Source of the DNA: a virus
Strand: one strand, 5' to 3'
DNA: 64,000 nt
IMG/VR virus record: IMGVR_UViG_3300033993_002459
Coordinates: 1 to 64,000 of that record
Part shown: positions 4,384-43,876 of the stretch, one piece after another
How the letters are laid out: each line of letters opens with the position of its first letter
Position numbering within the stretch: the stretch's first letter is position 1
Position numbers and translations under genes: made by a program
Notes under the pieces: generated by a model
Databases searched by the model: none
What the model was told of the DNA's origin: nothing
What the model saw: only the letters and a program-made list of their open reading frames with translations

Positions 4384-5505
4384 TTAGATAACGTAAATCT
4401 GTCTTGGTAACGCTTGCATTTTCTTTACTTTGTTAAGATTTTCAGCTAACAAAGCCTCTCTCTCCATAACCTTTTCAGGTCTTAGTCTGGTTAAACGACC
4501 TTCAGCACCAATAAGTTCATCTATGAGTTTAGTCTTTTCATCTTTACCTTCAGTCGCTAATGATGCGTAATCCATAGTAAGTTCACTGTCAGGAGTTTTG
4601 ATATTACCACTAAACTTACCTCTTACTTTTGCCAATGTTTCTTTGGCTGATGCAAAAAACCATTTACGAACCCATATTTGAGCTGGGTTATTTAAATCAA
4701 TCCAACTTATTTTATCGAAAGGAACATCAGATGGTAATTTAATAATATCAGGATTTTTCTTCAAACAATCGTCTCTATCAGGACCATCAACCTCATAATA
4801 CCAATACCATACTTTTCCTCTCATAAGGGTATTATTACCGAAATCAAACTTACCACCAGGTGTTTGCATCAAGTGTATTGCTTTTTTTCCTTCGGGTAAG
4901 GCTGTCATTCTGTATGTTAAATCACCTGCAATAATTCTTCTTTGGATATTAATTTCTTGCATCCTCAATAACATATCAAATGCTGGCATCATAAAGTAAG
5001 AACCCGAATAACCCATTTGTGAGTACCCGGCAGGTCCTCCAAGACCCGCACCTCCCAATGCACCAAAAGTCCAAGGGTCAAATAAAAGGTTTGTTAATTC
5101 ACTAGGTGTGAACCACAAAAGTTCATTTAATTCTCTACCTGCAGGTATTTCATATATTTGTTGTCCTGGAACTAATTGAATGTAATCTTTTTTGAGTACT
5201 GAATCACCACCAGCCTGTAAACCAACTATTTTTGAATAGGCATATGAATACCTTTCTTCGAAGTCAAAACTTTTTGTGATAAAAGCTTTGGACAATGATT
5301 GGGTATCCAAGTTAAGATTATATAATGAAGTCCATTGTGATTCGATTAACCAGTCTTGGACATATTGTGAATAATCCTCGATTGATAGCTCCAAAAGTGA
5401 ATCCAATTGTTCATCTTCTAATTCAATACTTCTAAGAGGGGCACCTAAAGTGTGTCTCAGTTTTGTATAAAGATTGGTTCTATCTGGTTCTGGAATTATT
5501 GACAT
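4384..5505 (-). CDS. 13: Neck protein, T4 gp13-like
   Basis: A 373-residue protein. Its N-terminus follows the gp13 pattern of T4-like phages: a helix with LRHTLGAPLRSIELEDEQ and then LLELSIEDYSQYV, the usual 'LG(A)P...I(E/D)(L/V)...EQ...Y' signature. The middle holds a glycine-rich loop (GALGGAGLGGPAG, near residue 150) and an aromatic patch (VWYWYYEVDG). The C-terminus is helical and charged. In T4, gp13 (309 residues) joins with gp14 to close the head after DNA packaging and form the tail attachment site; the same role is inferred here. It has a late-type promoter 14 bases upstream. The gp14-like partner is on the opposite strand at 11238, so the pair is split by the SOD and helicase genes. 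Confidence 0.68.
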   Translation of the reverse strand: MSIIPEPDRTNLYTKLRHTLGAPLRSIELEDEQLDSLLELSIEDYSQYVQDWLIESQWTSLYNLNLDTQSLSKAFITKSFDFEERYSYAYSKIVGLQAGGDSVLKKDYIQLVPGQQIYEIPAGRELNELLWFTPSELTNLLFDPWTFGALGGAGLGGPAGYSQMGYSGSYFMMPAFDMLLRMQEINIQRRIIAGDLTYRMTALPEGKKAIHLMQTPGGKFDFGNNTLMRGKVWYWYYEVDGPDRDDCLKKNPDIIKLPSDVPFDKISWIDLNNPAQIWVRKWFFASAKETLAKVRGKFSGNIKTPDSELTMDYASLATEGKDEKTKLIDELIGAEGRLTRLRPEKVMEREALLAENLNKVKKMQALPRQIYVI

Positions 5506-5533: not shown

Positions 5534-8266
5534 TTAGGGACATATTATTTTTTTGAAACTTATATTGGATACTGGTTTAGTATTCAATTCTAACTCGTTA
5601 CTTTGTGGGTTGTATATGTAGGTTATTCCATTTTTAACAACCTTAAAACGAATACTCAATCTTTTTTCTTTACAACCTGATTGACCTTTGTTTGACCAAT
5701 ATATTTCAATATTTTCCATAGGGACTAAAACATTTTCCTCAAAAATAATTCCTTTTAAGTTTTTTCTAATTAGTCCTAAGAATTGTTCACCAACACCTCC
5801 TTCCTTAATCTTGTTGAAGATGTCACTTATTATTTTGTTGTACACTCTCAAATGAGTTGGTTTCAATTTACTTACTTCACTTGATTTAAAAATGGAGAAA
5901 AACTCAGACAAATAGCTATCAACACTAGTATCCATCATTTTCACCTCAAACTTATCATCTTTTGAAAAAACTTTTTTACCATTATAATAGAAATCTGAGG
6001 TGGCCATCAAATCAGCTTTTATGGGTGTTATTGATTCCATATTACTCAATACACAATCAACGACTTCATCAATATACACATCCTCAGTTTCAGGATATTG
6101 TAATATAGTGTTAACAAGTTTAACAAAACTAGATTCACTATCCTCACCACATTTGTAATTTAAACTGAGTGAAGTAGGATATGACTTCATATAAGGTCCG
6201 ACCAAACTTTCCTCATATTCTGCATATTTCTGTTTTCTAACTGTTCTTAAAAATTCGTCCAATTTTGATGTATTTCGTATTGGTGATGTTTTAAGATTTT
6301 CTAGTCTATTTTTTGTTTCAGTTCCATCAAATTCATCATCCAAAATAAAGTTTGCAATAACTTTCATAAAATTACCTGGTAGGTCGGATAACATAGCCAA
6401 CTCCAACATTTTGGTGAATAATCCCCTACCAAATACTATATCTCTTCTTTCTTTTTTAGTTTTGATGTAACTATATGCAGGATAATAAAAATTTATTATG
6501 GTATTCAATGCGTCAATAACTTCTTGTTTTTCTTGGTCATTAATTTTATCGACAACTTCGTTTTTGAACTTACAATAAATTGAATTTGTGTCACCGAAAG
6601 AACATAAATCATCAAGTAGATTTTCTCTATCAAAACCTATTGAAATTGCTTCAGTTATTCGTTGTAGTTGTTTTTTTGTAATAACTATTTTTTTTGATTC
6701 AGTTAAATTTAATTTTTTTATATTCAAAGATGGGGATTGAAACTTTTTACTATCAGGTTTAAAAATGTATGAAAATCTTTCTTTTGAAGTCCCACCTTCA
6801 TCTTTTACTTCAACATCTTCAAAATCAAAGAAAATATAATTATTTTGATTATCAATGAATGCAAAAATTTGAATGTTGTTTGGGTCGTATTTATTTTTAC
6901 TTTTAAATACATAAACTATGTTCCCATTTTCATCTTTAGATTCGTATAAGTCAATAGTAGGTTTTACTTGAACATATTTACTATTACCATCTTCGGTAAC
7001 AAACATATCTTGTCCTTTATACTTATCCCTTGTATCACCATCACAAAATTGCGTTATTTGTGAATTTTTGTTTTTGGTGTTTAATATTTCAATTGCAATT
7101 TTTTCTCTTTCAATACCTCTATTTAAAGTTCCTTTTTTTGTTTTTGGATTTAAAACTATGTTTGCCAAACTTTCAGTGAACTTCCCCACATCACCAAATA
7201 GAGTTTTTCCCATAACATTAAACCAAGTTTCCAAATCATAGTTTTTACTATTATATTTTTCATAAAACTCTAATATTTTATCACTAATTCGAGTGTTAGC
7301 ATCAAACCAATTAACAACCGACCATTCACCAGTTCCACCCCTTTGACTTACAGCATATTTTCCACCAATAACACCATAGTTTGTTTTACATAACTCAGTT
7401 TGGATTTTACCATAACAAGGAGATTCAATACGAGTATCAGGATTGTAATCCCTAATAATTTCAGGTGAACATTTTGGATAAACTTTCTTCAATATTGTTT
7501 GAACAAAAACAGGATTTAGTCTTCCGTTTGGGTTTAATACCTCGACTTCTTCTTTGATTAATTTTTTAGTTTTAACTGATTCAGTTAACTTAGTTTTCTT
7601 TTTATCTGTATATAATTTATTAACAAACTCCCAATTTATAACATCCCAAAAGTTACCAATGTATTCATCTCTTTTGTTTTGATATTTGAGATAATATGCG
7701 TGTTCCCATACATCAAGACCAAGAATAGGAAATCCACCCCCATCAACTATGTTCATTAGTGGATTATCTTGGTTGGGTGTTGACATTATTTTAAGTCTGT
7801 TGTTTTTTGTCAATATTAACCAACACCAACCTGAACCAAATCTATCCTTAGCTATTTCGGTGAATTCTTTTTTGAATGAATTAATTGAACCGAAATCTTT
7901 AATAATTTTGTTTTTTATTTCAGTTGGTATTTCTTGTTTTTTTGGGGACAACATTTTCCAAAATAAAGCATGATTAAAAGCCCCACCCGCATTGTTTCGT
8001 ATTGTTTTATTGTACTTCGAGATGGACTTAATAATGTTCTCCAATTCAACATCGCCATAGTTCTTTTTAGATAAGGCTTTGTTCAATTTATCAACATAAC
8101 CTTTATAATGTTTGTTGTAATGTATATCCATCGTTTTTCCATCGATGAAACTACTAATTGAACGATATCCAAATGGTAATTTATCAATACCAATTTTTTT
8201 TGCTTCAGATAATATATCTTCTTTAGTTAATATTATTTCTTTAAGTAAATTTGCTGCTCTTTCCAT
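5534..8266 (-). CDS. Mn-type superoxide dismutase / nuclease-like polyprotein, putative head cargo
   Basis: A 910-residue multidomain protein. Residues ~30-222 form a complete Fe/Mn superoxide dismutase: YNKHYKGYV region with ligand H49, NNAGGAFNHALFW with H98, and LDVWEHAYYL with D185 and H189. NNAGG and STPNQDNPL favour the Mn type. A linker follows with LTE|S (227-229) and LIKEE. Residues ~245-515 hold a PD-(D/E)XK-like core (GQDMF, then YVQVKP; D420, Q433, K435). Two more sites, LTE|S (521-523) and ITE|A (537-539), bracket a basic linker. Residues ~540-910 contain a second possible core (ADLM, then FEVKMM; D752, E774, K776). The (L/I)-x-E sites match T4 prohead-protease specificity, so cleavage into separate packaged domains is inferred. 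The ATG at 8266 is preferred over 8284: a late-type promoter lies 4 bases upstream and the resulting N-terminus carries the shared NLLKE tag. The SOD call is firm; the nuclease calls are tentative. Confidence 0.85.
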   Translation of the reverse strand: MERAANLLKEIILTKEDILSEAKKIGIDKLPFGYRSISSFIDGKTMDIHYNKHYKGYVDKLNKALSKKNYGDVELENIIKSISKYNKTIRNNAGGAFNHALFWKMLSPKKQEIPTEIKNKIIKDFGSINSFKKEFTEIAKDRFGSGWCWLILTKNNRLKIMSTPNQDNPLMNIVDGGGFPILGLDVWEHAYYLKYQNKRDEYIGNFWDVINWEFVNKLYTDKKKTKLTESVKTKKLIKEEVEVLNPNGRLNPVFVQTILKKVYPKCSPEIIRDYNPDTRIESPCYGKIQTELCKTNYGVIGGKYAVSQRGGTGEWSVVNWFDANTRISDKILEFYEKYNSKNYDLETWFNVMGKTLFGDVGKFTESLANIVLNPKTKKGTLNRGIEREKIAIEILNTKNKNSQITQFCDGDTRDKYKGQDMFVTEDGNSKYVQVKPTIDLYESKDENGNIVYVFKSKNKYDPNNIQIFAFIDNQNNYIFFDFEDVEVKDEGGTSKERFSYIFKPDSKKFQSPSLNIKKLNLTESKKIVITKKQLQRITEAISIGFDRENLLDDLCSFGDTNSIYCKFKNEVVDKINDQEKQEVIDALNTIINFYYPAYSYIKTKKERRDIVFGRGLFTKMLELAMLSDLPGNFMKVIANFILDDEFDGTETKNRLENLKTSPIRNTSKLDEFLRTVRKQKYAEYEESLVGPYMKSYPTSLSLNYKCGEDSESSFVKLVNTILQYPETEDVYIDEVVDCVLSNMESITPIKADLMATSDFYYNGKKVFSKDDKFEVKMMDTSVDSYLSEFFSIFKSSEVSKLKPTHLRVYNKIISDIFNKIKEGGVGEQFLGLIRKNLKGIIFEENVLVPMENIEIYWSNKGQSGCKEKRLSIRFKVVKNGITYIYNPQSNELELNTKPVSNISFKKIICP

Positions 8267-8270
8267 AAGA

Positions 8271-8278
8271 TATAAATA
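8271..8278 (-). promoter_or_regulatory. Late-type promoter deciding the polyprotein start
   Basis: The minus strand reads TATTTATATCTTATG, putting the element 4 bases before the ATG at 8266, as tight as at 11227 and 62790. It lies inside the coding part of the longer alternative start (8284), which argues for the shorter one. Confidence 0.55.
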
Positions 8279-8289
8279 TCTCATAAATA

Positions 8290-11190
8290 TTAACGAACAG
8301 AATTAATCTTGTTCATAATTTGCTCAATGAACTCCGCTCTATCAATATTGTCACCCATAACAGTATCAATAACATTCTTTTTATTAATTAACATATCATA
8401 GATAACACCTTCAATCGTATTATCAAATAGTGGGTAATAGACTGAAACACAATTCTTTTGACCATATCTGTATGCTCTATCCTCAGCTTGTTGGTGATGT
8501 GCGGGAACAAAAGATAGGTCATTAAATATAACAGCCTCGCCTGCAGTTAAAGTAATACCAACTCCTGCAGCTTGTAAATTACCAACAAAAACTTTTATTT
8601 TATCGTTATCTTGGAATTGGTCAACCGCGTATTGTCTTTGGACTTTTGAGCAAGTTCCATCCAAATAAACAGCTTTCTTTCCAAAATGAGAATGAATCTT
8701 ATGTAGAGTATCTGTAAAGTTTGTGAATATGATAACTTTTTTATTAAGTTCCAAAATATTCTCAACAACCTCAATTGTATTCAATATTTTTTCTTCAGCA
8801 ATTACTTGTCTAACTTTCATCAATTTATTAAACTGAACTGTTAAAGACCTCGATTCATCAGGATGTTTATTATACCATTCGTAATACTCACCCATTAACT
8901 CTTCATACATTTTAGATTTTAATCTAAGATAGATAGGTGTAATAATCTTTTCAGGTAAATCTAGTACATCCTCTTTTAATCTTCTTAAAACTTGTCTTGA
9001 TGTCCTATCTCTTAACTCTTCCAAGTTTGACGCCCCATTCACATTCCAAACCTTTCTATTACCCGCCTTAAATTGATATCCTTGACAATAACGGATAACA
9101 TAAGCCATCCAATTTTGAGCAACAGGACTTTCAATTAGATTCAATAAATTATAATAGTTAATTGGTCTTGATGTCATTGGAGTTCCTGTCAATAACCAAA
9201 GATATTCAACATCCTTAACAAAACTATTAATTAATTTTGTTCTTTGAGCTTGGGGATTGGATATGTAATGTGCTTCGTCTATAATAACCAAATCAAAATT
9301 ACCTTTTGTAATTGGTGAGTTTTCTTTGTCCTTTAAATCATAAAAGTTTTTAATAATGTCATAATTTACAATAACAAAGTCGTGTTCAGTTGAAAAGTTT
9401 TTACCCTCACAAATATACACACTTCTATCTGTATAATTTCTAATTTCCCTCTCCCAATTTATTTTAAGTGACGCAGGACATATTATTAATATTTTTTTAG
9501 CGCCAGTTTCTAATGCCGCTAAAATAGTTGATGTTGTATTGTGAGTTACGATAGCATTTTCTGTAACGTATAATTTGTCTGGTGCATCAACTGAAATACA
9601 TACAGCTTCTCCTTTTTTTTCAAACTCTATGTTTTTGATATATCGTCCAACCTTGTATTTTTTAGGTGTGTTATATTGTTTTTCTTTTCTATTAAGTTTG
9701 AATGGATTCATACCTTCAGGTAATTTAATATTTACTCTGTACGATTTTTGTCCATCTTTCTTGATTCCTTTATGTGTATAGTTTGTTACTCTTGTTTTTT
9801 TTCTTGCTATACCCCCTAAACTATGTACTATTTCGATAACATCATCACAAAGTTGTTCTGACACAGTTGAGAATTCAGTTCCACTAAAATTACCATCAGT
9901 ATCTTTATTACAACTACCATCGGTATCCATTAACCCTTTCAGTATTTCTAATCTATTTTCAACAGAAGTATATTTGAATATGTTTGGAATAAATTTGTTA
10001 TTAGATTTAGTTCCCATTAATTCTAATTGCTTCAACACTTGAATCAACGGATTTAAATGACCACTAATTTTTGTTAATCTATAACCATATTTTGTACCTT
10101 TACTCTCGACTATTTGAGTATTATGTGGTAAAGTGTCTTTAATATAATCAACAATTTCTGAGTCAGCTGTTGTAAAATGAACAGAATCTTTACTAATTCC
10201 CCCATCGCCTATAATTAAACCCAACAAGTATGGATGTATGGGTAAAATAGTATCCATAAATTCAATAGGTTTTACAATTGGAATTTGCCATTTGTTGTTA
10301 CCATCGTTTTCTTTGTAGTATGTTTTATATTTGTAAATTTTATTCACATTATTTTTTGTACCATTTATTTCCAAGTTCAACTTTTTATCCAACATCTGTT
10401 CTACAGATAAAACAATCGCTTTTTTTTCTCTTTTATTTTTACTATTATCTCCAAATGACCTTGATTTTACGTTAAATAAATGTTCTTTACAAACTAAAAT
10501 GGATGTGTTGTCATTAAATGTGACCCTATATAAATCTTTAATTCCTTGTGGATAAACACCAATTACATTACATTTTTTTCCATCACTACCAATAACTTCG
10601 TCACCAACTTTTAATTTACCGATTGGTTTTCTTCCATATGGGGTAAACACCCTATTTTCAACAAACTCAGCTTTTCCCAGCCCCATGTCGTCTGCTAAAA
10701 TAAATCTTTTACTACCCACCAATTTTTCTATTGCGGTTCTTTGGTGTTCAAGTGGGGGTCTATGACTATATTTTGTATAATCTATTTTGACCTCTATTGT
10801 GTTATGTGTTTTTAATAATGCGGCTTTAGGTAACCACATATCTGTCAATGTATCACCAGTATTAAATTTACCCCAAATATGGTATGATTTGTCTTTGTCT
10901 ACCAATAACTTTTCAACCCAAATATCAGTTGGTACTGATAACATATTTTTTTCATCAGCAATCTTGTTTGCAAAATATGGTTCCATATTAACCCACTTCT
11001 TTGCAACCTTTGGTTCAACAGAATGATAGTTGATAATATATTCAGCTTGGGAACGAGTGGGGTAAAACTTTTTATTAGTTTCTTTTAGGTATTTTAATTT
11101 TTGAATATAGTTATTTGTTCCCGAATAATTATCTAATATGTCGAGTGCTTTTAATTCAATAAGATTAGAGGTATTACCTGATATATTCAA
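8290..11190 (-). CDS. SNF2-family helicase interrupted by an intein
   Basis: A 966-residue precursor: residues 1-173 and 552-966 are the helicase, 174-551 the intein. After excision the 588-residue enzyme has motif I (DDMGLGK joined to TT), motif II DEAH (VIIDEAHYI), motif III (LLTGTPM), motif V (AAGVGITLTAG) and motif VI (QQAEDRAYRYGQ). This is the SNF2/SMARCAL1-like pattern of an ATP-driven DNA translocase or annealing helicase. It may do the work of T4 UvsW in fork remodelling, although UvsW is not an SNF2 protein. No ATG opens this frame: the best start is TTG at 11190, and the first in-frame ATG is 69 codons in. An ATG at 11206 opens another frame that stops after 10 codons. A sigma-70-like promoter lies upstream, which fits early or middle expression. 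Confidence 0.92.
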   Translation of the reverse strand: MNISGNTSNLIELKALDILDNYSGTNNYIQKLKYLKETNKKFYPTRSQAEYIINYHSVEPKVAKKWVNMEPYFANKIADEKNMLSVPTDIWVEKLLVDKDKSYHIWGKFNTGDTLTDMWLPKAALLKTHNTIEVKIDYTKYSHRPPLEHQRTAIEKLVGSKRFILADDMGLGKAEFVENRVFTPYGRKPIGKLKVGDEVIGSDGKKCNVIGVYPQGIKDLYRVTFNDNTSILVCKEHLFNVKSRSFGDNSKNKREKKAIVLSVEQMLDKKLNLEINGTKNNVNKIYKYKTYYKENDGNNKWQIPIVKPIEFMDTILPIHPYLLGLIIGDGGISKDSVHFTTADSEIVDYIKDTLPHNTQIVESKGTKYGYRLTKISGHLNPLIQVLKQLELMGTKSNNKFIPNIFKYTSVENRLEILKGLMDTDGSCNKDTDGNFSGTEFSTVSEQLCDDVIEIVHSLGGIARKKTRVTNYTHKGIKKDGQKSYRVNIKLPEGMNPFKLNRKEKQYNTPKKYKVGRYIKNIEFEKKGEAVCISVDAPDKLYVTENAIVTHNTTSTILAALETGAKKILIICPASLKINWEREIRNYTDRSVYICEGKNFSTEHDFVIVNYDIIKNFYDLKDKENSPITKGNFDLVIIDEAHYISNPQAQRTKLINSFVKDVEYLWLLTGTPMTSRPINYYNLLNLIESPVAQNWMAYVIRYCQGYQFKAGNRKVWNVNGASNLEELRDRTSRQVLRRLKEDVLDLPEKIITPIYLRLKSKMYEELMGEYYEWYNKHPDESRSLTVQFNKLMKVRQVIAEEKILNTIEVVENILELNKKVIIFTNFTDTLHKIHSHFGKKAVYLDGTCSKVQRQYAVDQFQDNDKIKVFVGNLQAAGVGITLTAGEAVIFNDLSFVPAHHQQAEDRAYRYGQKNCVSVYYPLFDNTIEGVIYDMLINKKNVIDTVMGDNIDRAEFIEQIMNKINSVR
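9538..10671 (-). mobile_element. Intein with LAGLIDADG homing endonuclease
   Basis: A 378-residue intein inserted exactly in Walker A, between Lys of GLGK and Thr of TTST. It starts with Ala (AEFVENRVFTPYGR) instead of Cys or Ser and ends with VTHN, followed by Thr at +1. Splicing block F carries Cys (AVCISVD) and the residue before HN is Thr. These features match class 3 inteins, but block B reads EHLFNV, with Phe where class 3 inteins have Trp. The endonuclease is of the two-motif DOD type: LLGLIIGDGG and LKGLMDTDG, each with its catalytic Asp. It should therefore be able both to splice and to home. The call is certain; the class assignment is by motif reading. Confidence 0.93.
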
Positions 11191-13066: not shown

Positions 13067-16000
13067 ATGTCAAACAATAAAGTTTTCGTATCACCAGGTG
13101 TGTATACATCAGAAGTTGACTTGAGTTTTGTTTCACAAAGTGTGGGGGTTACTACACTTGGTATTGTGGGGGAAACTTTAAAAGGTCCAGCTTTTGAACC
13201 AATCTTCATTACAAATTATGATGAATTTACAACTTACTTTGGTGGTACATCACCTGAGAAATTTGTAAATACACAAATACCTAAATATGAAGCAGCTTAT
13301 ATAGCAAAAGCATATTTACAACAATCAAACCAATTATTCGTAACTAGAATTTTGGGTCTATCAGGTTATGATGCAGGTCCTTCTTGGTCTATAACTACTA
13401 TCGCTAATGTTGACCCTGCTACTATAGGTTTCGAGTGTTTAAGTGCAACTTCAGCAAATTGTGCAACACAATGTGTTTCATTTAATGTAACACCTTATAC
13501 AATTAACTTCACTGGTTGTACTAATAGCTCAAGTACAATTGATTTTACATCAACGATACCTGGTTTCTTATCTGCTGACTTGGATAGTACATATGAACAA
13601 TTCAATGGTTCGTTATCTACCATAAAGTCTGATTTGGTAACTCAACTTTATGGTATTGTTAATACACCATCAACTTCTGCATCATCTATAAATTATTTCG
13701 GTACAATATCTGGTGGAACTTATGACACTTTGAGTGGTTATACCGCTGAGACCAATGTATTTGCGGTTGATAATGTTAGTTCAGATTTAGCAAACTTTTC
13801 AGCACCTACTAACGACCCTTGGTACTATGCGACATTTGATAATATTGGTAACAACAATTATACAGGTTATTCTTTCTTTAGTTATGTTAGTAATTTAGTA
13901 CAAACATCATCTAAATCAAATTGTGCTTCATTCTATAGTTACACGGTTAGCTCGTCAACAATAAGTGCAATTACAGCTTCAATTAATTACAATACGAATA
14001 CAATCAGTGTTTGTTTACCAAGTACAGCCCAAACTTCTGATTATTCAGCAATGACAGTTGTATATAGTGCTTGTACTGACCCAATCTATAGTGGAATCAC
14101 AAGTGGAGGTGTTGTTCAATCTTCAACTATGACTGGAGTTTCGTTTACGGCTTTAACAAAATCATATACTGTAGTTTCAGATGATTTGACAGCTACTTCA
14201 GCATGGACTGTAAATGTTACTATCAATGACCCTTGTAATGTATGTTCGACAGGTAATGTTGGAACTTTCCCAACACCAGTATTTACGAATTGTTTTAGTG
14301 GTACTGTATCAGGACAAACATTTATCTACACAGGTGATTCATTCTCAAATTATGATGATTTGGTTGTAGCAACACTTCGTTCGAGAGGTATAGCTACCTA
14401 TACGACTGACACAGGTCCTGTTTACCAAGTTTCTAATGTAGGTGATGTGACTATTGATTGTACAGGAAGTTATTCAGGAATTTCTAAAAATCCTTATTCA
14501 ACTTTTGCAATAGATGTAACCGACAAAGATGGTACTAACTATAGTTTCGAAACCTCATTCACTCTATCAGATCCTAAGTATATCTCTAAAGTTTTTGGTT
14601 CATCTAACTTTGGGAAACCTAGAACAGTTGTACCATTGTTTGTTGAAGAACAATTTCAAAATCTTTTAAACTATGCTTATAGAAAAGGATACATTAGAGG
14701 TTTGAATTGTACTTTGAATGGGTTATCGGGTGCAAGACCTTATACTGACTTAACTTCTATAGCGTGGTATTTAGAACAATATCAATCAGCAACATCTCCT
14801 TGGTTGGTTTCTGAGTTGAGAGGTAATAAAGTTTACAACTTGTTCAAGTTCATAACTATTGCTGATGGTGATACTTCAAATGTGGAGGTAAAAATTTCTA
14901 TTGCAAATATATCTTTCACAAATGGTACATTTGATGTATATGTTAGAGACTTTTTTGATTCAGACGCTGCACCTCAAGTATTGGAGAAATTTACTAATTG
15001 TTCTATGAATCCAAACGAGAACAATTTCGTTGCTAAAAAAATTGGTACTTCAGATGGAGAATATCAACTTAACTCGAAGTTTGTTATGTTGGAAATGAAC
15101 GAAGATGCACCAATAGATGCTTTACCTTGTGGTTTCGAAGGTTATACATTCCGTGAATATGCGGGTTCGAAACCACCATTCCCAGTATACAAAACTAAAT
15201 ACGATTTTCCTGGTGAACAAATTTACAATCCACCTTTCGGATTGAGTAGTGGTGCAGATGATGCTTTGTTAAGTTCAGGTGATAATGTTAGAAGAACATA
15301 CTTAGGTATTGGTGACTTCTATGGATATGATATTGACTTTTATACTTACAAAGGAAAAAGAATTCCAAGTTCACCTTGTACTGCAACTGTTGGTGATGAT
15401 TGGGCTTACAAAACTAAGGGTTTCCATATGGATATAAATGCGAGTGGAATTACAATCTCCAATGGTTTTGCTTCAAGTGGTACTACAGCTTTCTTTGTTG
15501 GTGCAGCATCATTCACTAATGACCCTGATAATGAAAGTAATCCATACTTCAGAATATTTGCGCGTAAGTTCAGTTTACTATGTAAGGGTGGTTTTGATGG
15601 TTGGGACATCTACAGAGAAAATAGAACAAACAAAGATACATTTGTATTAGGTAGAAGTGGTTACTTAAGGGGGGCTTGTCCTGATTTCAGGTATCCGAAC
15701 GCAACTGGTTCAGGAACATTTAAACAAATAAGTGTTGGTGATAATACACAAGATTATGCAAACTCTGATTACTACGCTTACTTGTTAGGTATTCAGACCT
15801 TCTCTAATCCTGAAGCGGTTAATATAAATGTTTTTGCAACACCTGGTATTGATTATGTTAATAATAGTGGTTTAGTTGAGGCGGCCATAAATATGGTTGA
15901 ATTTGACAGAGCGGACTCAATTTATATAACAACAACACCTGACTATAATTTATATACAGCTTCAGCAAATGATTCACAATTAATTATTTATCCACAAGAG

Positions 16001-16654
16001 GCTGTTGATAACTTAGTAACTGCGGGTATTGATTCGAATTACACCGCTACTTATTATCCTTGGGTTTTAACTAGAGATACGGTTAACAATACTCAAATCT
16101 ATATTCCAGCAACTGCTGAGGTTTGTAAGAATCTTGCTCTAACTGATAACATAGCATTCCCTTGGTTTGCAGCAGCAGGTTACACTCGTGGTATTGTAAG
16201 TGCAATCAAAGCGAGAAAGAAACTTACTCAAGAGGATAGAGATACTCTTTATCAAGGAAGACTGAATCCAATTGCAACATTCTCAGATGTCGGAACGGTA
16301 ATTTGGGGTAACAAGACTATGCAAATTAGAGAGTCGGCACTTGATAGAATTAATGTTAGAAGATTGTTATTACAAGCAAGAAAACTTATATCAGCTGTTT
16401 CAGTTAGATTGTTATTCGAACAAAATGACGAAAAGGTAAGACAAGATTTCTTGGATGCGGTTAATCCAATCTTAGACGCAATCAGAAGAGACAGAGGTTT
16501 ATATGATTTCCGTGTAACTGTATCATCTGATCCTGCTGACTTAGATAGAAATCAATTAACTGGTAGAATCTACATTAAACCTACAAGAGCACTAGAGTTC
16601 ATAGATATTACTTTCTTCATAACACCAACAGGTGCATCATTTGAGAATATCTAA
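13067..16654 (+). CDS. 18: Tail sheath protein (T4 gp18-like), oversized
   Basis: A 1195-residue sheath, nearly twice the 659 residues of T4 gp18. The N-terminus (VFVSPGVYTSEVDLSF, then GIVGETLKGPAFEP) and the C-terminus (NVRRLLLQARKLISAVSVRL, FEQNDEKVRQDFLDAVNP, then GLYDFRVTVSSDPADLDRNQ) are typical of contractile sheath proteins; these parts form the conserved core that packs around the tube. The extra length lies mainly at residues ~115-500. It is Ser/Thr/Asn-rich, contains many cysteines and reads as several beta-sandwich domains that would project outward. A shorter insertion follows at ~600-900. A late-type promoter precedes it and a hairpin terminator follows, so it may be a single-gene unit, as expected for a highly expressed protein. 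The call is firm. Confidence 0.95.
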   Translation: MSNNKVFVSPGVYTSEVDLSFVSQSVGVTTLGIVGETLKGPAFEPIFITNYDEFTTYFGGTSPEKFVNTQIPKYEAAYIAKAYLQQSNQLFVTRILGLSGYDAGPSWSITTIANVDPATIGFECLSATSANCATQCVSFNVTPYTINFTGCTNSSSTIDFTSTIPGFLSADLDSTYEQFNGSLSTIKSDLVTQLYGIVNTPSTSASSINYFGTISGGTYDTLSGYTAETNVFAVDNVSSDLANFSAPTNDPWYYATFDNIGNNNYTGYSFFSYVSNLVQTSSKSNCASFYSYTVSSSTISAITASINYNTNTISVCLPSTAQTSDYSAMTVVYSACTDPIYSGITSGGVVQSSTMTGVSFTALTKSYTVVSDDLTATSAWTVNVTINDPCNVCSTGNVGTFPTPVFTNCFSGTVSGQTFIYTGDSFSNYDDLVVATLRSRGIATYTTDTGPVYQVSNVGDVTIDCTGSYSGISKNPYSTFAIDVTDKDGTNYSFETSFTLSDPKYISKVFGSSNFGKPRTVVPLFVEEQFQNLLNYAYRKGYIRGLNCTLNGLSGARPYTDLTSIAWYLEQYQSATSPWLVSELRGNKVYNLFKFITIADGDTSNVEVKISIANISFTNGTFDVYVRDFFDSDAAPQVLEKFTNCSMNPNENNFVAKKIGTSDGEYQLNSKFVMLEMNEDAPIDALPCGFEGYTFREYAGSKPPFPVYKTKYDFPGEQIYNPPFGLSSGADDALLSSGDNVRRTYLGIGDFYGYDIDFYTYKGKRIPSSPCTATVGDDWAYKTKGFHMDINASGITISNGFASSGTTAFFVGAASFTNDPDNESNPYFRIFARKFSLLCKGGFDGWDIYRENRTNKDTFVLGRSGYLRGACPDFRYPNATGSGTFKQISVGDNTQDYANSDYYAYLLGIQTFSNPEAVNINVFATPGIDYVNNSGLVEAAINMVEFDRADSIYITTTPDYNLYTASANDSQLIIYPQEAVDNLVTAGIDSNYTATYYPWVLTRDTVNNTQIYIPATAEVCKNLALTDNIAFPWFAAAGYTRGIVSAIKARKKLTQEDRDTLYQGRLNPIATFSDVGTVIWGNKTMQIRESALDRINVRRLLLQARKLISAVSVRLLFEQNDEKVRQDFLDAVNPILDAIRRDRGLYDFRVTVSSDPADLDRNQLTGRIYIKPTRALEFIDITFFITPTGASFENI

Positions 16655-35628: not shown

Positions 35629-36622
35629 GAAAACGGATTTCAGTAGTATTAAAAAGAAGTTCTCTACCTCAGCAAAGTACAAACAACAAAGATACTTTGA
35701 CTTGGGTACTGAGTTCTTGGATGCTGTTGGATTACCAGGTCCTGCTGTAGGTCACCTAAATATGTTTTTAGGTCACTCTGATACTGGTAAAACAACTGCT
35801 TTAGTAAAAACTGCAGTAGATGCTCAGAGAAAGGGTATTCTACCTGTGTTTATTATTACAGAACAAAAATGGAGTTTTGAACACGCTAAATTGATGGGAC
35901 TACAATGTGAAGAAGTTGTGGACGAAGAAACTGGTGAAGTTGACTGGGATGGTTTTTATATCTTCAACAATAACTTCGAATATATTGAACAAATCACAGA
36001 TTATATCAACGACTTACTTGATGCACAAGAAAAAGGTGACCTTGAATATAGTTTATGTTTTATGTGGGACTCAGTTGGGTCAATTCCTTGTAAAATGACT
36101 TTTGAAGGTAAAGGTGGAAAACAACATAACGCATCAGTTCTTGCTGATAAAATTGGTATGGGTATTAATCAAAGAATCTCAGGTTCTAGAAAAGCAGATT
36201 CAAAGTTTGAAAATACTTTGATTATCGTGAACCAACCATGGGTTGAATTACCTGACAATCCTTTTGGACAACCAAAAATTAAAGCTAAAGGTGGTGAAGC
36301 AATATGGTTGAACTCTTCTTTGGTATTTTTGTTTGGTAATCAAAAAGGAGCTGGTACAACTAAGATTACGGCAACTAAAGATAAAAGAAGTGTTAAGTTT
36401 GCATCAAGAACTAAAGTATCTGTATTGAAGAACCATATTAATGGTTTGGGATATGATGATGGTAAGATAATTGTAACTCCCCACGGATTCTTATCAGGTA
36501 AAGATACAACTGAAGAAAAAGCTTCTATTGAAAAATATAAGAAAGAATACGCAGATTATTGGAAAGATTTATTAGGTTTGGAGGGAGATTTTGATTTGAA
36601 AGAAGAAAGAGAACATGAATAA
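35618..36622 (+). CDS. uvsX: UvsX/RecA-like recombinase
   Basis: A 334-residue recombinase (T4 UvsX 391). Walker A is GHSDTGKTT (about residues 51-60) and Walker B is SLCFMWDSVGS. Further RecA-like parts are the DNA-binding region around GKGGKQHNASVLADKIG and ISGSRKADSKFENTLIIVNQ. The C-terminus is acidic (GDFDLKEEREHE). It forms filaments on SSB-coated DNA, drives strand exchange and allows recombination-dependent replication as in T4. It overlaps the upstream small gene by 11 bases and the methyltransferase gene by 8 bases, a tightly coupled operon. The assignment is firm; sequence alone cannot separate UvsX from a RecA/SAR-type relative, but the T4-like neighbours favour UvsX. Confidence 0.92.
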   Translation: MAIKKTDFSSIKKKFSTSAKYKQQRYFDLGTEFLDAVGLPGPAVGHLNMFLGHSDTGKTTALVKTAVDAQRKGILPVFIITEQKWSFEHAKLMGLQCEEVVDEETGEVDWDGFYIFNNNFEYIEQITDYINDLLDAQEKGDLEYSLCFMWDSVGSIPCKMTFEGKGGKQHNASVLADKIGMGINQRISGSRKADSKFENTLIIVNQPWVELPDNPFGQPKIKAKGGEAIWLNSSLVFLFGNQKGAGTTKITATKDKRSVKFASRTKVSVLKNHINGLGYDDGKIIVTPHGFLSGKDTTEEKASIEKYKKEYADYWKDLLGLEGDFDLKEEREHE

Positions 36623-37622
36623 ACTAAAAGTAATATCACTATTTTCGGGTTATGGTACACAAGAGTTGGCACTGAAATACATCGGTGCTAACTATGAAGA
36701 TGTTGCAAATTGTGACATCCTTAAAGTTGCGAACATAGCTTATGATTCATTACACGAGACAACATTGGGTAACTTGGGGGACATATCAAAGGTAAACGAA
36801 GATAGTTTCCCCCAATGTGACCTGATGACCTATTCTTTCCCTTGTCAAGATATATCAATATCAGGGGTACAAAAGGGTATTCAAAAAGGTACAAGAAGTG
36901 GTTTGTTATATGAAGTTGAAAGGATTTTGACAAAGAACCAACCGAAGTATCTTTTGATGGAGAATGTTAAAAACTTGGTATCACATAATCACATTGAGAA
37001 CTTCAAAGCTCATATTTCATTCTTAAATGAATTGGGTTATGGTTGTTCTTGGAAGGTATTGAATGGCGCCGACTTTGGTTGTCCACAGAATAGAGAGAGG
37101 GTGTTTATGATGTCCGTATTTGGTTTGACAAATAATGAAGTTGAAACAATTATGAGTGGTGTTGAGAAACATAAGAAAGATAGAGTTCCTATGAGACCAT
37201 TCATCGAAAATGAGATTACAGAGGACTTATTTATCACTTGTGACATTACACCTAACCATCCCAAAAAAGATAGTGTGTGCAAACTTGTGGCAAGGAGAAA
37301 CGATGTTAACTACGACCAAGCAAGACGAGTTTATTCGATTGATGGTTGTTCCCCTTGTTTAACAACAACTGGTTCACCACAGATTATGGTTGATGGAAGA
37401 ATAAGAACTATCACAGGAAGAGAGGCTTACAGATTTATGGGTGTTAGAGAAGAAGATATTGATAAATTATTATCAACAAGTTTAACAACTAAGAACCACG
37501 TAGCTTTAGCTGGTAATTCCATTTGTGTACCAGTAATGGAAGCTATCTTTACAGAGTTTTTGGGTGAGTATATCTCACAAACAGAAGTAAAAAAATCGTT
37601 CACACAATTAAGTTTATTTTAA
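36615..37622 (+). CDS. DNA (cytosine-5) methyltransferase
   Basis: A 335-residue C5-cytosine methyltransferase with all main motifs: I (ISLFSGYGTQELALKYIG), IV (YSFPCQDISISG, nucleophile Cys77), VI (LLMENVKNL), VIII (GCPQNRERVFMM), a region near IX (YSIDGCSPCLTTTG) and X (ALAGNSICVPVMEAIF). The target recognition part lies between VIII and IX, about residues 165-245, and gives no readable specificity. No partner endonuclease gene is adjacent, so it is an orphan enzyme. It probably protects phage DNA from host restriction or marks it during replication. It sits inside the replication operon, overlapping uvsX by 8 bases and followed at once by the exonuclease gene, so newly made DNA could be modified as it forms. 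Confidence 0.93.
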   Translation: MNKLKVISLFSGYGTQELALKYIGANYEDVANCDILKVANIAYDSLHETTLGNLGDISKVNEDSFPQCDLMTYSFPCQDISISGVQKGIQKGTRSGLLYEVERILTKNQPKYLLMENVKNLVSHNHIENFKAHISFLNELGYGCSWKVLNGADFGCPQNRERVFMMSVFGLTNNEVETIMSGVEKHKKDRVPMRPFIENEITEDLFITCDITPNHPKKDSVCKLVARRNDVNYDQARRVYSIDGCSPCLTTTGSPQIMVDGRIRTITGREAYRFMGVREEDIDKLLSTSLTTKNHVALAGNSICVPVMEAIFTEFLGEYISQTEVKKSFTQLSLF

Positions 37623-40497: not shown

Positions 40498-41448
40498 ATG
40501 ACAGAAAAAATATTAACAGAAAATCCCAATCGTTTTGTGATTTTCCCAATCCAATACCACGACATTTGGGAATACTACAAACAACATCAGGCTGCGTTTT
40601 GGACAGCTGAAGAGGTGGATTTGAGTGGTGACATCAGAGATTGGCAAAACTTATCAGAGAACGAACAATACTTCGTTAAAAATGTATTATCATTCTTTGC
40701 TGCATCTGATGGTATTGTTAATGAGAACTTAGCTGAAAACTTTTACAGAGAAGTACAATACCCCGAAGCGAAATTTTTCTACGGATTTCAATTGATGATG
40801 GAAAATATCCATTCATTAATGTATTCTTTGTTAATTGATACTTATATATCCAACCCTGATGAAAAGGATGAATGTTTTAATGCAATCGATAGATTACCCG
40901 CAGTTCAAAAGAAAGCTAAGTGGGCATTAGATTGGATTGAAAAAGCGTCATTCCAAGAAAGATTGGTTGCATTTGCTGCAGTAGAAGGTATATTCTTTTC
41001 AGGTTCATTCTGTTCTATTTTCTGGTTGAAGTCAAGAGGAATTATGCAAGGACTTTGTAATGCAAACTCCTTGATTTTTAAAGATGAAAACCTACATTGT
41101 GATTTCGCAATTCACTTGTTGAATAATCATGTTGAGAATAAACCAAGTGAAAAAAGAATAAAAGAAATATTACTTTCTGCTTTGGAAATTGAAAAAGAAT
41201 TTATCACTGAATCACTACCTATATCATTAATCGGTATGAACTCTAACCTTATGAAACAATATTTGGAGTTTGTTGTTGATGGTTTATTGGTTAAGTTGGG
41301 ATGTAGTAAACAATTCAATGTAGAACAACCATTCAAGTTTATGGAACAAATTGCAGTAGAAACAAAAGGTAATTTCTTCGAATCAAGAACGGTTGAGTAT
41401 CAAAAAGCAAAACTTAACGAAACAATTTCATTCACAGACGATTTCTAA
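40498..41448 (+). CDS. nrdB: Ribonucleotide reductase class Ia, small subunit
   Basis: A 316-residue beta subunit. All di-iron ligands and the radical tyrosine are readable: D71 ([12 protein letters not shown]), E102 and H105 with Tyr109 ([10 protein letters not shown]), E163 ([10 protein letters not shown]), and E197 and H200 ([10 protein letters not shown]). The C-terminus ([12 protein letters not shown]) gives the acidic aromatic tail that docks on the large subunit. With NrdA it converts ribonucleotides to dNTPs for phage DNA synthesis and needs oxygen to form the tyrosyl radical, pointing to an aerobic host phase. It starts 2 bases after the helicase and precedes nrdA by 10 bases, the reverse of the usual T4 order (nrdA before nrdB). 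Confidence 0.95.
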
Positions 41449-41458
41449 AATTATTATT

Positions 41459-43876
41459 ATGTCATTAAGAATTCAAAAAAGGGATGGGGATGTTGTGTCC
41501 TTTAATCCAACAAAAATACAAAACAGAATTAAAAAAGCCAGTAAGAACTTAAATGTAAACTCAGACCAGATTTTCATTAAGGTTATTACTTCCGTACCAA
41601 CAGAGGGTGTAATTTCAACAAAACAATTAGATAAGTTGATTTACGAGATTGCTGCATCATATACAGGTAGCCACCACGATTATTCGAGGTTGGCTTCTTC
41701 TGTTGCAATATCTTCATATCACAAAGAAACAAATGAAAGTTTCAGTGAGACGATGAAGTCATTAGCTGATATGGGTATTGTTAATAAAGAATTGATTGAT
41801 ATGATTGATTCCTATGGGGATTTGAATATCGATGAAGTTATCAATCACGAGAATGATTATAACTTTGATTACTTTGCTTGGCGTTCATTATTTGAAATGT
41901 ACTTGTTAAAAACACCAGAAGGTGTAACTGTGGAAAGACCCCAACATATGTATATGAGGGTTGCTTTATGGGTAACAAAATCATTTGATGAAGCTGTAGA
42001 ATACTACAAGTCATTATCAAATCAATTAATTTCTCCAGCAACACCAATTATGATTAATGCTGGTACAAAGATTCCTCAATTAGCATCTTGTGTACTACAT
42101 TATAACAATGATGACTCAAGAGGAGGTTTGTTAGCAACAATGAATGATATCTCTACTTATTCTGCTGACGCTGCAGGTATTGGTCTTTGTATGTCAAATA
42201 TTAGAAGTAAGGAGAGTAGATTGAGTACATCAGGTGGTTTTGCTGGTGGATTATTAAAATATCTTAAGATTGCAAATGAATCACTAAGATTCTTTAACCA
42301 ACAAGGTAGAAGACCAGGTTCTGCCGCAATTTATCTTGAACCTTGGCATAAAGATATCTTTGACTTGTTGGACATTAAAAAGAATACAGGTGCGGAAGAA
42401 TTAAGAGCAAGAGATTTGTTCACAGCTCTATGGATTCCTGATAATTTTATGAGAGCCGTAAAAGAGGGTGGTGATTGGTATTTATTCTGCCCTAACGATA
42501 TTAAAAAAGCTGGTCTAAAACCATTACAAGAATGTTTTGGTAGTGAGTACGAAAGTGTTTATGAACAAGCGGTAAATTTAGGTTTGGGTAAAAAAGTAAA
42601 AGCAACAGATGTTTGGACTAAGGTAATTGAATCTCAAATTGAGACTGGTGTACCTTATCTTTGTTCTAAAGATAATGCTAACAACAAAACTAATCATCAG
42701 AACATTGGGGTTATCAAACAATCAAATCTTTGTAACGAGATTTACCAATTTACTGACGAGAAAACTACAGCTATCTGTACTCTATCTTCAATGGTGTTGA
42801 AAAACTTTGTAAAAGATGGTGAGTTTAATTTTAGACTTCTTTATGAAGAAACAAGAAAGGTTGTTAGAGCCCTTAATAAAGTTGTTGATATTAATAACTA
42901 TTCAACTTCAAAAGGTGAAAAGGGTGGTAAAGAACAAAGAGCAATTGCAATTGGAACTCAAGGTTTAGCGGATGTATTCTATCTTATGGATTATGAGTTT
43001 ACTTCAGACGAAGCAAAACAACTAAACAAAGATATCTTTGAGACAATTTATTTTGCCGCAATCACCGAAAGTAATAGGTTGGTAATTGATGGTGATTATA
43101 AACCATATGATTTCTTCGATGGTTCACCAATGTCACAAGGACAATTCCAATTTGATATGTGGGGATTAACAGAATCTGATTTATCAGGTAGATGGCCTTG
43201 GGAAATATTAAAGTCAAATGTTAAACAATATGGTATTTGTAATTCATTGTTTACAGCACAAATGCCCGTAGCGAGTTCTGCTAAGATTACTGGTTCATAT
43301 GAAATGACTGAACCTGCTCACTCAGCAATCTTCAATAGACGAGTAGTTGGTGGTGAAATTATGATTGTTAACAAGTATCTTATTAATGATTTTGAGAAAC
43401 TTGGTATTTGGGGTGAGGATTTGAAAAATGAAATTATATACAATGAAGGTTCGATTCAAAATATTAATTTCAACAACTACTTAGACCCTGAAGACAAAAA
43501 GTACAATCAAAAAGTTAAAAGAATTGAACACTTGATTAAGAAGTACAAAACGATTTGGGAAATATCACAAAGGGAGTTGATTGATATGGCAGCAGATAGA
43601 GGACCTTTTATTGACCAATCACAATCAATGAATATTTATATGGGTAATCCTACTTTATCGAAGATTACTTCATCTCACTTCCACGCTTGGCAAAAAGGTT
43701 TAAAAACTCTTTGTTATTATGTGAGAACAAAAGCAATCTCAACAGGAGCAAAACACTTAGCTATGGATATATCAAAGATGGATAAACCAAAAGTAACACC
43801 AACATTACCACATGTTGAACCTATAACAAACAAACCAACTGATTCACCATTTGAATGTTTTGGATGTTCATCTTAA
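41459..43876 (+). CDS. nrdA: Ribonucleotide reductase class Ia, large subunit
   Basis: An 805-residue alpha subunit starting MSLRIQKRDGDVV at 41459; longer starts into nrdB are rejected. The N-terminal ATP-cone (RDGDVVSFNPTKIQNRIKKA) is present, so dATP inhibition may be kept. Catalytic parts include LASCVLHYNN (first redox Cys), NLCNEI (radical Cys), CTLSSMVL (second redox Cys) and the PVASSAKITGSYEMTEP region. The C-terminus ends ECFGCSS, with the two cysteines that pass electrons from thioredoxin or glutaredoxin. Length and motifs match complete class Ia enzymes, with no intein or intron. It closes the replication and nucleotide block and is followed by a strong terminator. Confidence 0.96.
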   Translation: MSLRIQKRDGDVVSFNPTKIQNRIKKASKNLNVNSDQIFIKVITSVPTEGVISTKQLDKLIYEIAASYTGSHHDYSRLASSVAISSYHKETNESFSETMKSLADMGIVNKELIDMIDSYGDLNIDEVINHENDYNFDYFAWRSLFEMYLLKTPEGVTVERPQHMYMRVALWVTKSFDEAVEYYKSLSNQLISPATPIMINAGTKIPQLASCVLHYNNDDSRGGLLATMNDISTYSADAAGIGLCMSNIRSKESRLSTSGGFAGGLLKYLKIANESLRFFNQQGRRPGSAAIYLEPWHKDIFDLLDIKKNTGAEELRARDLFTALWIPDNFMRAVKEGGDWYLFCPNDIKKAGLKPLQECFGSEYESVYEQAVNLGLGKKVKATDVWTKVIESQIETGVPYLCSKDNANNKTNHQNIGVIKQSNLCNEIYQFTDEKTTAICTLSSMVLKNFVKDGEFNFRLLYEETRKVVRALNKVVDINNYSTSKGEKGGKEQRAIAIGTQGLADVFYLMDYEFTSDEAKQLNKDIFETIYFAAITESNRLVIDGDYKPYDFFDGSPMSQGQFQFDMWGLTESDLSGRWPWEILKSNVKQYGICNSLFTAQMPVASSAKITGSYEMTEPAHSAIFNRRVVGGEIMIVNKYLINDFEKLGIWGEDLKNEIIYNEGSIQNINFNNYLDPEDKKYNQKVKRIEHLIKKYKTIWEISQRELIDMAADRGPFIDQSQSMNIYMGNPTLSKITSSHFHAWQKGLKTLCYYVRTKAISTGAKHLAMDISKMDKPKVTPTLPHVEPITNKPTDSPFECFGCSS

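Follow-up and report, generated by a model that had tools for sequence, protein, structure and literature searches.

A putative head-targeted polyprotein of superoxide dismutase and nuclease-like modules in a T4-type phage and its relatives

Packaged phage proteins and the gene under study

In bacteriophage T4 each packaged cargo protein has a gene of its own, and the prohead protease gp21 cuts by the general rule (L/I)-x-E. The internal proteins of T4 carry a capsid targeting sequence (CTS), a short N-terminal peptide that gp21, a protease of family S77, removes after glutamate (PMC9958956; this and most other papers are drawn on in excerpt). Alt is cut at both ends, at ITE-6 and LTE-619 (PMC5694885), and this internal cargo is diverse, the CTS alone being conserved (PMC3012670). 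The gene considered here lies in the first 64,000 bases (the window) of the 70,654-base IMG/VR viral record IMGVR_UViG_3300033993_002459, and encodes a superoxide dismutase (SOD) fused to two further domains, NucA and NucB (Table 1). It is probable (about 0.77) that this gene specifies a head-targeted cargo precursor of a T4-type (freshwater) phage, the modules of which would be trimmed apart and packaged.

Several other systems invite comparison. In phage P1, DarB is packaged by way of an N-terminal signal and DarA is believed to be processed (PMC9024508). Polyvalent proteins (Iyer et al. 2017) are multidomain, are predicted to be packaged and include zincin-like peptidases among their domains (PMC5512222). 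The ejection proteins of SPN3US and phiKZ are cut after glutamate by the gp245/gp175 proteases, at A-x-E in SPN3US (PMC5694885, PMC10052503). SOD itself has been named among the virion proteins of giant eukaryotic viruses (PMC9405923).

Modules, predicted cut sites and tags

As a preliminary description of this DNA had proposed, SOD is fused to a long downstream part in an intact reading frame, and that part resolves into two domains. The SOD domain matches Pfam Sod_Fe_N (4e-20) and Sod_Fe_C (2.4e-39); it is complete and, judged by the best NCBIfam model (below its cut-off) and by second-sphere residues, Mn-type, again as first described. The metal ligands, H49, H99, D185 and H189, are invariant across 23 aligned rows. 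The earlier ligand list differed in one position, giving H98 for H99; residue 98 is asparagine.

The C-terminal half of NucA supports a PD-(D/E)XK nuclease fold. NucA was modelled with a mean predicted local distance difference test (pLDDT) of 85.9, and its best VIA-align rows, nucleases of that fold class, were SPARDA (Z 8.9, root-mean-square deviation (rmsd) 3.8, 120 aligned), Hjc (Z 8.1, rmsd 3.7, 109 aligned) and I-Ssp6803I (Z 8.0, rmsd 3.5, 107 aligned), followed by NhoI and DpnI at Z 7.5. I-Ssp6803I was also the best Foldseek match, with probability 1.00 and an E of only 4.3e-3, and the E..D..QxK motif is invariant in 27 rows. NucB (mean pLDDT 84.1) is called nuclease-like by motif only, its E..D..ExK being invariant in 30 rows; Foldseek and VIA-align gave scattered matches, none significant (HinP1I, Z 2.9, rmsd 6.2, 128 aligned). 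Structure prediction of each domain, suggested at the outset as a check, agrees with a nuclease-like character for NucA, where fold and motif coincide, and leaves NucB with its motif.

Sequence profiles of NucA and NucB had no match among PDB chains up to E 1, nor had the whole 910-residue protein in PHROGs; Pfam and NCBIfam gave no reliable match to any module other than SOD, and a pattern scan of public bacterial and archaeal genomes found no relative of NucB. Two candidates under their cut-offs, SSSPR-51 on NucA (E 0.0044) and TIGR03479 on residues 262-385 (E 0.0021), were set aside.

Predicted cut sites of the gp21 kind lie between the modules. The three listed earlier, LTE↓S at 227, LTE↓S at 521 and ITE↓A at 537 (arrows mark the predicted scissile bond), stand where they had been placed, and a fourth, LSE↓A at residues 19-22, had been overlooked before SOD. 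The bare pattern [LI]xE tells little, because it matches 13 times in 910 residues. [LI]xE[SA] occurs five times against a shuffle mean of 1.03 (at least five in 0.35% of 20,000 shuffles), and four of these fall in the 87 linker residues, a number found there in 0/20,000 shuffles; the linker limits were chosen with the sites already known, and the relatives are the independent test. The fifth match, LYES at 440, is within NucA. Residues 220-237 and 505-525, which cover both LTE↓S sites, were modelled at pLDDT <50.

From 170 relatives found by scanning viral contigs, 80 were retained; SOD is fused in every complete open reading frame (ORF) among them, and its partners differ. With ORFs open at a contig end excluded, 159 full-length ORFs reduced to 88 at 80% identity. 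The main architectures are M-SOD-NucA (15), M-SOD-NucB (10), SOD-NucD (10), SOD-NucB (4) and M-SOD-NucC (3); M-SOD-E-NucA, SOD-NucA-NucB, M-SOD-E, M-SOD, SOD-NucA-NucA and SOD-NucA-NucC are represented by two ORFs or fewer each, and the SOD-less ORFs are NucB (16), E (9), NucA (5), NucD (3), M (2) and NucC (1). The NucB class includes ORFs with NucB behind other, unmodelled domains, and one protein (L004) was counted as SOD-NucB since the overlap rule missed its NucA, which the SOD-to-NucB linker spans; this label was set right for the count of module changes on the SOD tree. NucC and NucD are read as nuclease-like by eye only. Module M, about 135 residues long, has an HExxH motif, likewise read by eye; in one case (L061) it matched Peptidase_M78 weakly, under the cut-off (E 0.0087).

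The same fusion had been proposed as something to seek in related phages. The window's own arrangement recurs in two contigs (L002 and L003) at 99-100%, and a fused SOD is present at 70/70 loci fetched by SOD with enough flank, each with the helicase upstream and the adaptor downstream (70/70 for both). When the adaptor was used as a neutral anchor (79 loci, that is, the best 80 of at least 599 matches minus L327, the 79 having more than 1.5 kb upstream), SOD was in the slot at 70/79. It is probably useful as an enzyme, since it is present at so many loci and its ligands are kept in 23/23 rows. The nine loci without SOD carry NucD, two of them NucA too, and LSES stands just before NucD in 8/9. 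Free-standing SODs lacking tag and sites, the case that the preliminary description had set against itself, were looked for: SOD-only genes occur at 8/79 loci, and 8/8 keep LITE↓M ahead of SOD and ILES in a C-terminal tag remnant. This remnant, kept also in one further protein (L343, as LNES), is as expected if a module was lost.

Junctions were surveyed in 52 dereplicated proteins, with the conserved start of SOD, not the motif, as the reference point. The residue before SOD (P1) is glutamate in 52/52; P3 is isoleucine (31) or leucine (21), P2 is free, with nine different residues, and P1' is methionine (43), alanine (8) or threonine (1). A site of the form [LI]xE[SANM] was found in 34/34 linkers between M and SOD (shuffle mean 6.8), 18/19 between SOD and NucA (2.5), 9/14 between SOD and NucB (2.2) and 8/10 between SOD and NucD (1.3), and K-x-[LI]-x-E-[SN] sites downstream of SOD also exceed those in shuffled linkers. 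The C-side site pattern missed 2/50 linkers, though those hold LDES and LNES. The M-SOD proteins of 360-364 residues end straight after SOD without a site (four were read).

These figures bear on two alternatives. One is that the sites are chance matches in an ordinary fusion, or the fusion an assembly artefact. The bare motif is indeed frequent, but the linker and junction statistics, with the proteome-wide ranking given below, exclude chance as far as sequence allows, and recurrence of the fusion at 99-100% identity and in the same slot argues against an artefact, so that almost no credence can be given to either. The other is an uncut multidomain enzyme at work in the infected cell, with an auxiliary metabolic or takeover role, flexible basic linkers and incidental glutamate sites. 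Its linkers would be disordered, as these are and as any linker would be, and the free-standing SOD of Vibrio phage 2.275.O is surrounded by genes for translation and topoisomerase and not by head genes. P3 and P1, however, are fixed around a free P2 in all 52 proteins, the tags recur on the N-termini of unrelated small proteins, and the scaffold/core gene ranks first or second for the same motif in five genomes; an uncut enzyme is therefore unlikely.

The recurring N-termini suggest that the cargo precursor has more at its junctions than a cut site. Many small proteins of these phages start MKKIVRLTESDLTRIVKRVIxE or MKIIITESQYKxLxEx. By a profile whose training set excluded the genome being scored (shuffling the N-termini yields 0.0 to 0.2), tagged N-termini number 14/260 ORFs in G011, 9/151 in G013, 4/148 in G007, 3/138 in G017, 4/123 in G001, the near twin of the window's record, and 2/207 in the sister genome G002 (the record of L008). 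The 36 small-protein ORFs sharing the tag across these six genomes include a run in G011 at 222-242 kb.

A second profile, from 31 tags of non-SOD ORFs, ranks the linker KKIVITKKQLQRITEA of the window protein fifth, tied with a near-copy, among 499,780 internal segments. Six of the ten best segments, and nine of the best 20, come from SOD ORFs, which hold 30,448 of the total. Proteins were merged only if exactly identical; near-copies (L002/L003, L004/L015, L012/L014) therefore swell the head of the list, and the leading segment is an N-terminal tag whose start was placed too far upstream. NucB unfused to SOD has the tag at its N-terminus in 10/16 representatives by eye (for example MKIIISESQLIRLQES) and between an upstream domain and NucB in 5/16. 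Module E, in one contig, forms four free tagged genes and once the C-terminal part of an SOD protein. Because of the profile rank, the tags of free-standing NucB and the case of module E, the linker ahead of NucB seems to be the N-terminal tag of NucB itself, retained after fusion. As far as the sequences go, the junction carries a portable tag, beyond a mere cut site.

Further tags were seen in other settings. In three relatives (L159, L170, L197) the tag likewise separates NucB from the preceding domain of the fusion, which is hydrophobic and probably spans a membrane. An acidic protein of 532-563 residues (G002 6525-8123 and G001 87243-88934) has an internal tag (IIKLTENEIVDLIESLVNE) and is possibly a second polyprotein or a core protein. 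A 24-residue tag peptide had no match in phage records, a query too short to say much.

Homology can also break at the predicted bond. The window protein and that of L005 agree at 479/523 residues up to the E of the site (LTE↓), then at 8/77; L204 and L290 agree at 360/366 up to LKE↓, then continue into NucB and NucA, respectively. Both pairs were chosen by eye, and another close pair (L181/L274) already differs ahead of its site. By a minimum count, the module that follows SOD has changed 19 times on the 52-row SOD tree. A swap at the scissile bond is expected if every module must keep its own tag and site.

Table 1. Features of the polyprotein gene and its immediate neighbours in the window
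Feature	Coordinates	Strand	Basis or detail
Cargo polyprotein gene	5534..8266	-	910 aa, intact, stop 5534-5536
N-terminal leader, residues 1-21, ends LSE↓A	8204..8266	-	sequence
Predicted cut site LSE↓A (19-22; P1' = A22)	8201..8212	-	sequence + relatives
Mn/Fe superoxide dismutase domain, residues 22-217	7616..8203	-	Pfam matches + aligned ligands
Basic linker/tag 1, residues 218-245	7532..7615	-	sequence
Predicted cut site LTE↓S (227-230; P1' = S230)	7577..7588	-	sequence + relatives
NucA, residues 246-512	6731..7531	-	PD-(D/E)XK core ~379-512: E388, D420, Q433xK435
Linker/tag 2, residues 513-548	6623..6730	-	internal copy of N-terminal tag, by profile
Predicted cut site LTE↓S (521-524; P1' = S524)	6695..6706	-	sequence
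Predicted cut site ITE↓A (537-540; P1' = A540)	6647..6658	-	sequence
NucB, residues 549-910	5537..6622	-	invariant E685, D752, E774xK776
TATTTAT promoter-like element ahead of ATG	8272..8278	-	enrichment upstream of ORFs
Head-tail adaptor (Ad2-like), conserved downstream neighbour	4384..5505	-	Ad2 family match E 9e-9
SNF2-type helicase with LAGLIDADG insert, conserved upstream neighbour	8290..11190	-	family matches

The same reading frame can be opened further upstream, as 5534-8284(-) with 916 residues. The 910-residue start, from the ATG at 8266, is preferred because TATTTAT would fall within the longer reading. This heptamer appears to be a promoter-like element of the phage group: it occurs within 45 nt upstream of 228/888 ORFs and inside 10/888, its reverse complement is rarer upstream (75/888), and it lies from -60 to +40 of the first start in 47/52 SOD genes. 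The insert of the window helicase is LAGLIDADG/Hint-like (intein-like), and many relatives have a gene of about 590 residues instead. Sheath, tube and baseplate genes are found in the window, and therefore the phage is contractile-tailed. The best sheath-family match to the tail sheath protein (13067-16654, 1195 residues) is restricted to residues 903-1193.

Head genes and the case for a cargo precursor

A T4 gp21-family protease (Peptidase_S77) was found in 7/20 related contigs searched, among them the sister genome G002, where it is located with the major capsid protein (MCP), portal and terminase. Some 61 kb are common to G001 and G002 (86% nucleotide identity) and fall entirely inside 1-94.6 kb of G002; the G002 head module, at 150-170 kb, is outside the content of the window's record and of the near twin G001, neither of which has the protease.

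Head proteins of the relatives carry the site motif too. ORFs of at least 100 residues in five genomes were ranked by excess of [LI]xE[SA] without annotation, the scaffold/core role being assigned from position, and the scaffold/core gene came out at 1/167, 1/215, 2/126, 1/120 and 1/125. The neighbour of MCP holds rank 1 in three genomes (G002, G007, G017) and rank 2 in G013; rank 1 in G011 belongs to the core gene that lies between protease and portal. The SOD polyprotein ranks 6/167 in G002. A conserved INE↓A closes the N-terminal region of MCP in 5/5, and in G017 two tagged genes are located between protease and scaffold. A probable head protein near MCP (G013 69129-70241, G017 132815-133840) bears this tag C-terminally and, close to its N-terminus, a [LVI]xE↓AT(S/G) site. 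Among named isolates, the closest MCPs are those of Microcystis phage Mel-JY01 (43.4% over 53%) and of Flavobacterium phage immuto (41.3% over 53%), the latter phage having short N-termini of a distinct kind.

The tag might alternatively be some other targeting or binding signal, for example for a replication compartment or a membrane, with [LI]xE a part of the signal and not a cut site. As such a signal would allow, the genes of many small tagged proteins lie elsewhere than in the head module. Yet the core LTE↓S matches sites in the scaffold/core gene and MCP as well as those of T4 Alt, tagged genes lie between protease and scaffold in G017, and in two pairs homology stops at the E↓x bond, all of which makes a signal of this sort quite improbable.

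For the reading as a cargo precursor we infer packaging, cleavage and ejection along the following lines. The basic tags would hold the cargo chain in the scaffold core of the prohead; the gp21-family (S77) protease would cut after glutamates in head maturation, stripping the tags and freeing SOD, NucA and NucB; and the freed proteins would travel alongside the DNA in the head and probably pass into the host at ejection. The functions that would follow are less firmly grounded. Upon entry the nucleases might attack unmodified host or competitor DNA, as the variability of the nucleases suggests, and a DNA methyltransferase encoded in the window (36615-37622) could mark the phage's own DNA. SOD might clear superoxide; candidate sites of action are the head, against photochemical superoxide in sunlit water, and the newly infected cell, for example in protecting the class I ribonucleotide reductase encoded at 40498-43876. 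Of the precursor first proposed, to be cut into SOD and DNA-acting enzymes, independent modules joined at gp21-type sites are borne out by comparison and by the S77 protease of relatives, and the DNA-acting enzymes have nuclease-fold support in NucA and a motif only in NucB.

A wider proposal has slightly better than even odds: a clade-wide cargo-loading code, in which a portable tag, approximately MKK-[IV]-x-LTE↓S-x(8-12)-[IV]xE↓, would earmark dozens of proteins for head delivery and trimming, and the helicase-adaptor locus would be a cassette that recombines at the scissile bond, so that the injected proteome could be read from sequence. The modules of the cassette are SOD, the HExxH peptidase-like module and five others, four of them read as nucleases, one with fold support.

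A number of observations weigh against the cargo reading. The S77 search gave no match in 13/20 contigs, the window's own record among them, most of these contigs probably being fragments. Tagged N-termini by profile number 0/43 ORFs in the window's record and 0/220 in immuto. Among SOD-less module ORFs, only 10/34 have a tag-profile score beyond the 95th percentile of the remaining ORFs (NucB 5/16, E 5/9, NucA 0/5, NucD 0/3, NucC 0/1), the background itself including many tagged proteins; module M has no tag. One SOD-less NucD gene (L359) has no site, the G011 neighbour of MCP is absent from the 12 genes listed by site excess, and ITE↓A540 sits in a predicted helix of low confidence. The shuffle statistics ignore shared ancestry. 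Finally, the protease cuts identified in SPN3US, the protease's cut of itself aside, all gave N-terminal propeptides in the account available (PMC10052503), and therefore cuts freeing several enzymes would be new there.

If the cargo reading is true, a single precursor lets phages supply their hosts with an antioxidant enzyme as well as nucleases that can be swapped, and nature would offer a scheme by which one capsid is loaded with several enzymes. A readable tag would then predict which of the many small unknown proteins in these phages travel in the head, and genomes would allow a direct test of an old question, namely which phage proteins are the first to enter the cell.

Comparison with described systems

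The preliminary description knew of no phage system of this kind, and a literature search (titles and abstract openings) agrees, having turned up no polyprotein from which a prohead protease frees several enzymes separated by tags. Among 29 SODs in phage records, none is fused likewise at the four loci examined (three with gene tables, one without). The free-standing SOD of Vibrio phage 2.275.O (L380 2453-3022) ends KMLDESVNIRHLINFISK, resembling the tag remnant behind SOD. In Pseudomonas phage PA5oct, gp223 (L381 1956-2504) is SOD-like though annotated hypothetical, with ligands apparently kept (by eye) and IAE↓A before the domain. It is flagged as found by electrospray ionization tandem mass spectrometry (ESI-MS/MS), but is not counted as proof of a virion SOD because ribonucleotide reductase, thymidylate synthase and DNA ligase carry the same flag. 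For the giant eukaryotic viruses, which have other hosts, a Cu,Zn-SOD (Megavirus) appears in the reference list of the paper cited, and the excerpt used makes no mention of a polyprotein (PMC9405923).

With the DarA, DarB and DdrB anti-restriction proteins of P1 the likeness is that of large head proteins, putative ones in the present case; the P1 proteins have other domains and no SOD, and no internal tags are noted in the excerpt (PMC9024508). Polyvalent proteins, like the present one, place two or more effector-like domains in one phage polypeptide. Their processing is ascribed, in the sections drawn on, mainly to built-in zincin peptidases and not to a separate prohead protease acting at repeated tags (PMC5512222); the word superoxide occurs 0 times in the main text of that paper, and the HExxH module M, which recalls those peptidases, occurs in relatives and not in the window. 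SPN3US and phiKZ share with the proposed system cuts after glutamate and ejected head proteins, but as described in the excerpts their cuts remove propeptides, not tags between enzymes.

The nearest likeness is to IPI-III and Alt of T4, in an N-terminal leader ending in a gp21-type site, read from sequence in 52/52 representatives here. The difference is that several enzymes are here strung together with tags between them, and that the modules swap among phages. The parts are of known kinds, and their combination is a variation on the T4-type system of head-packaged, protease-trimmed internal proteins.

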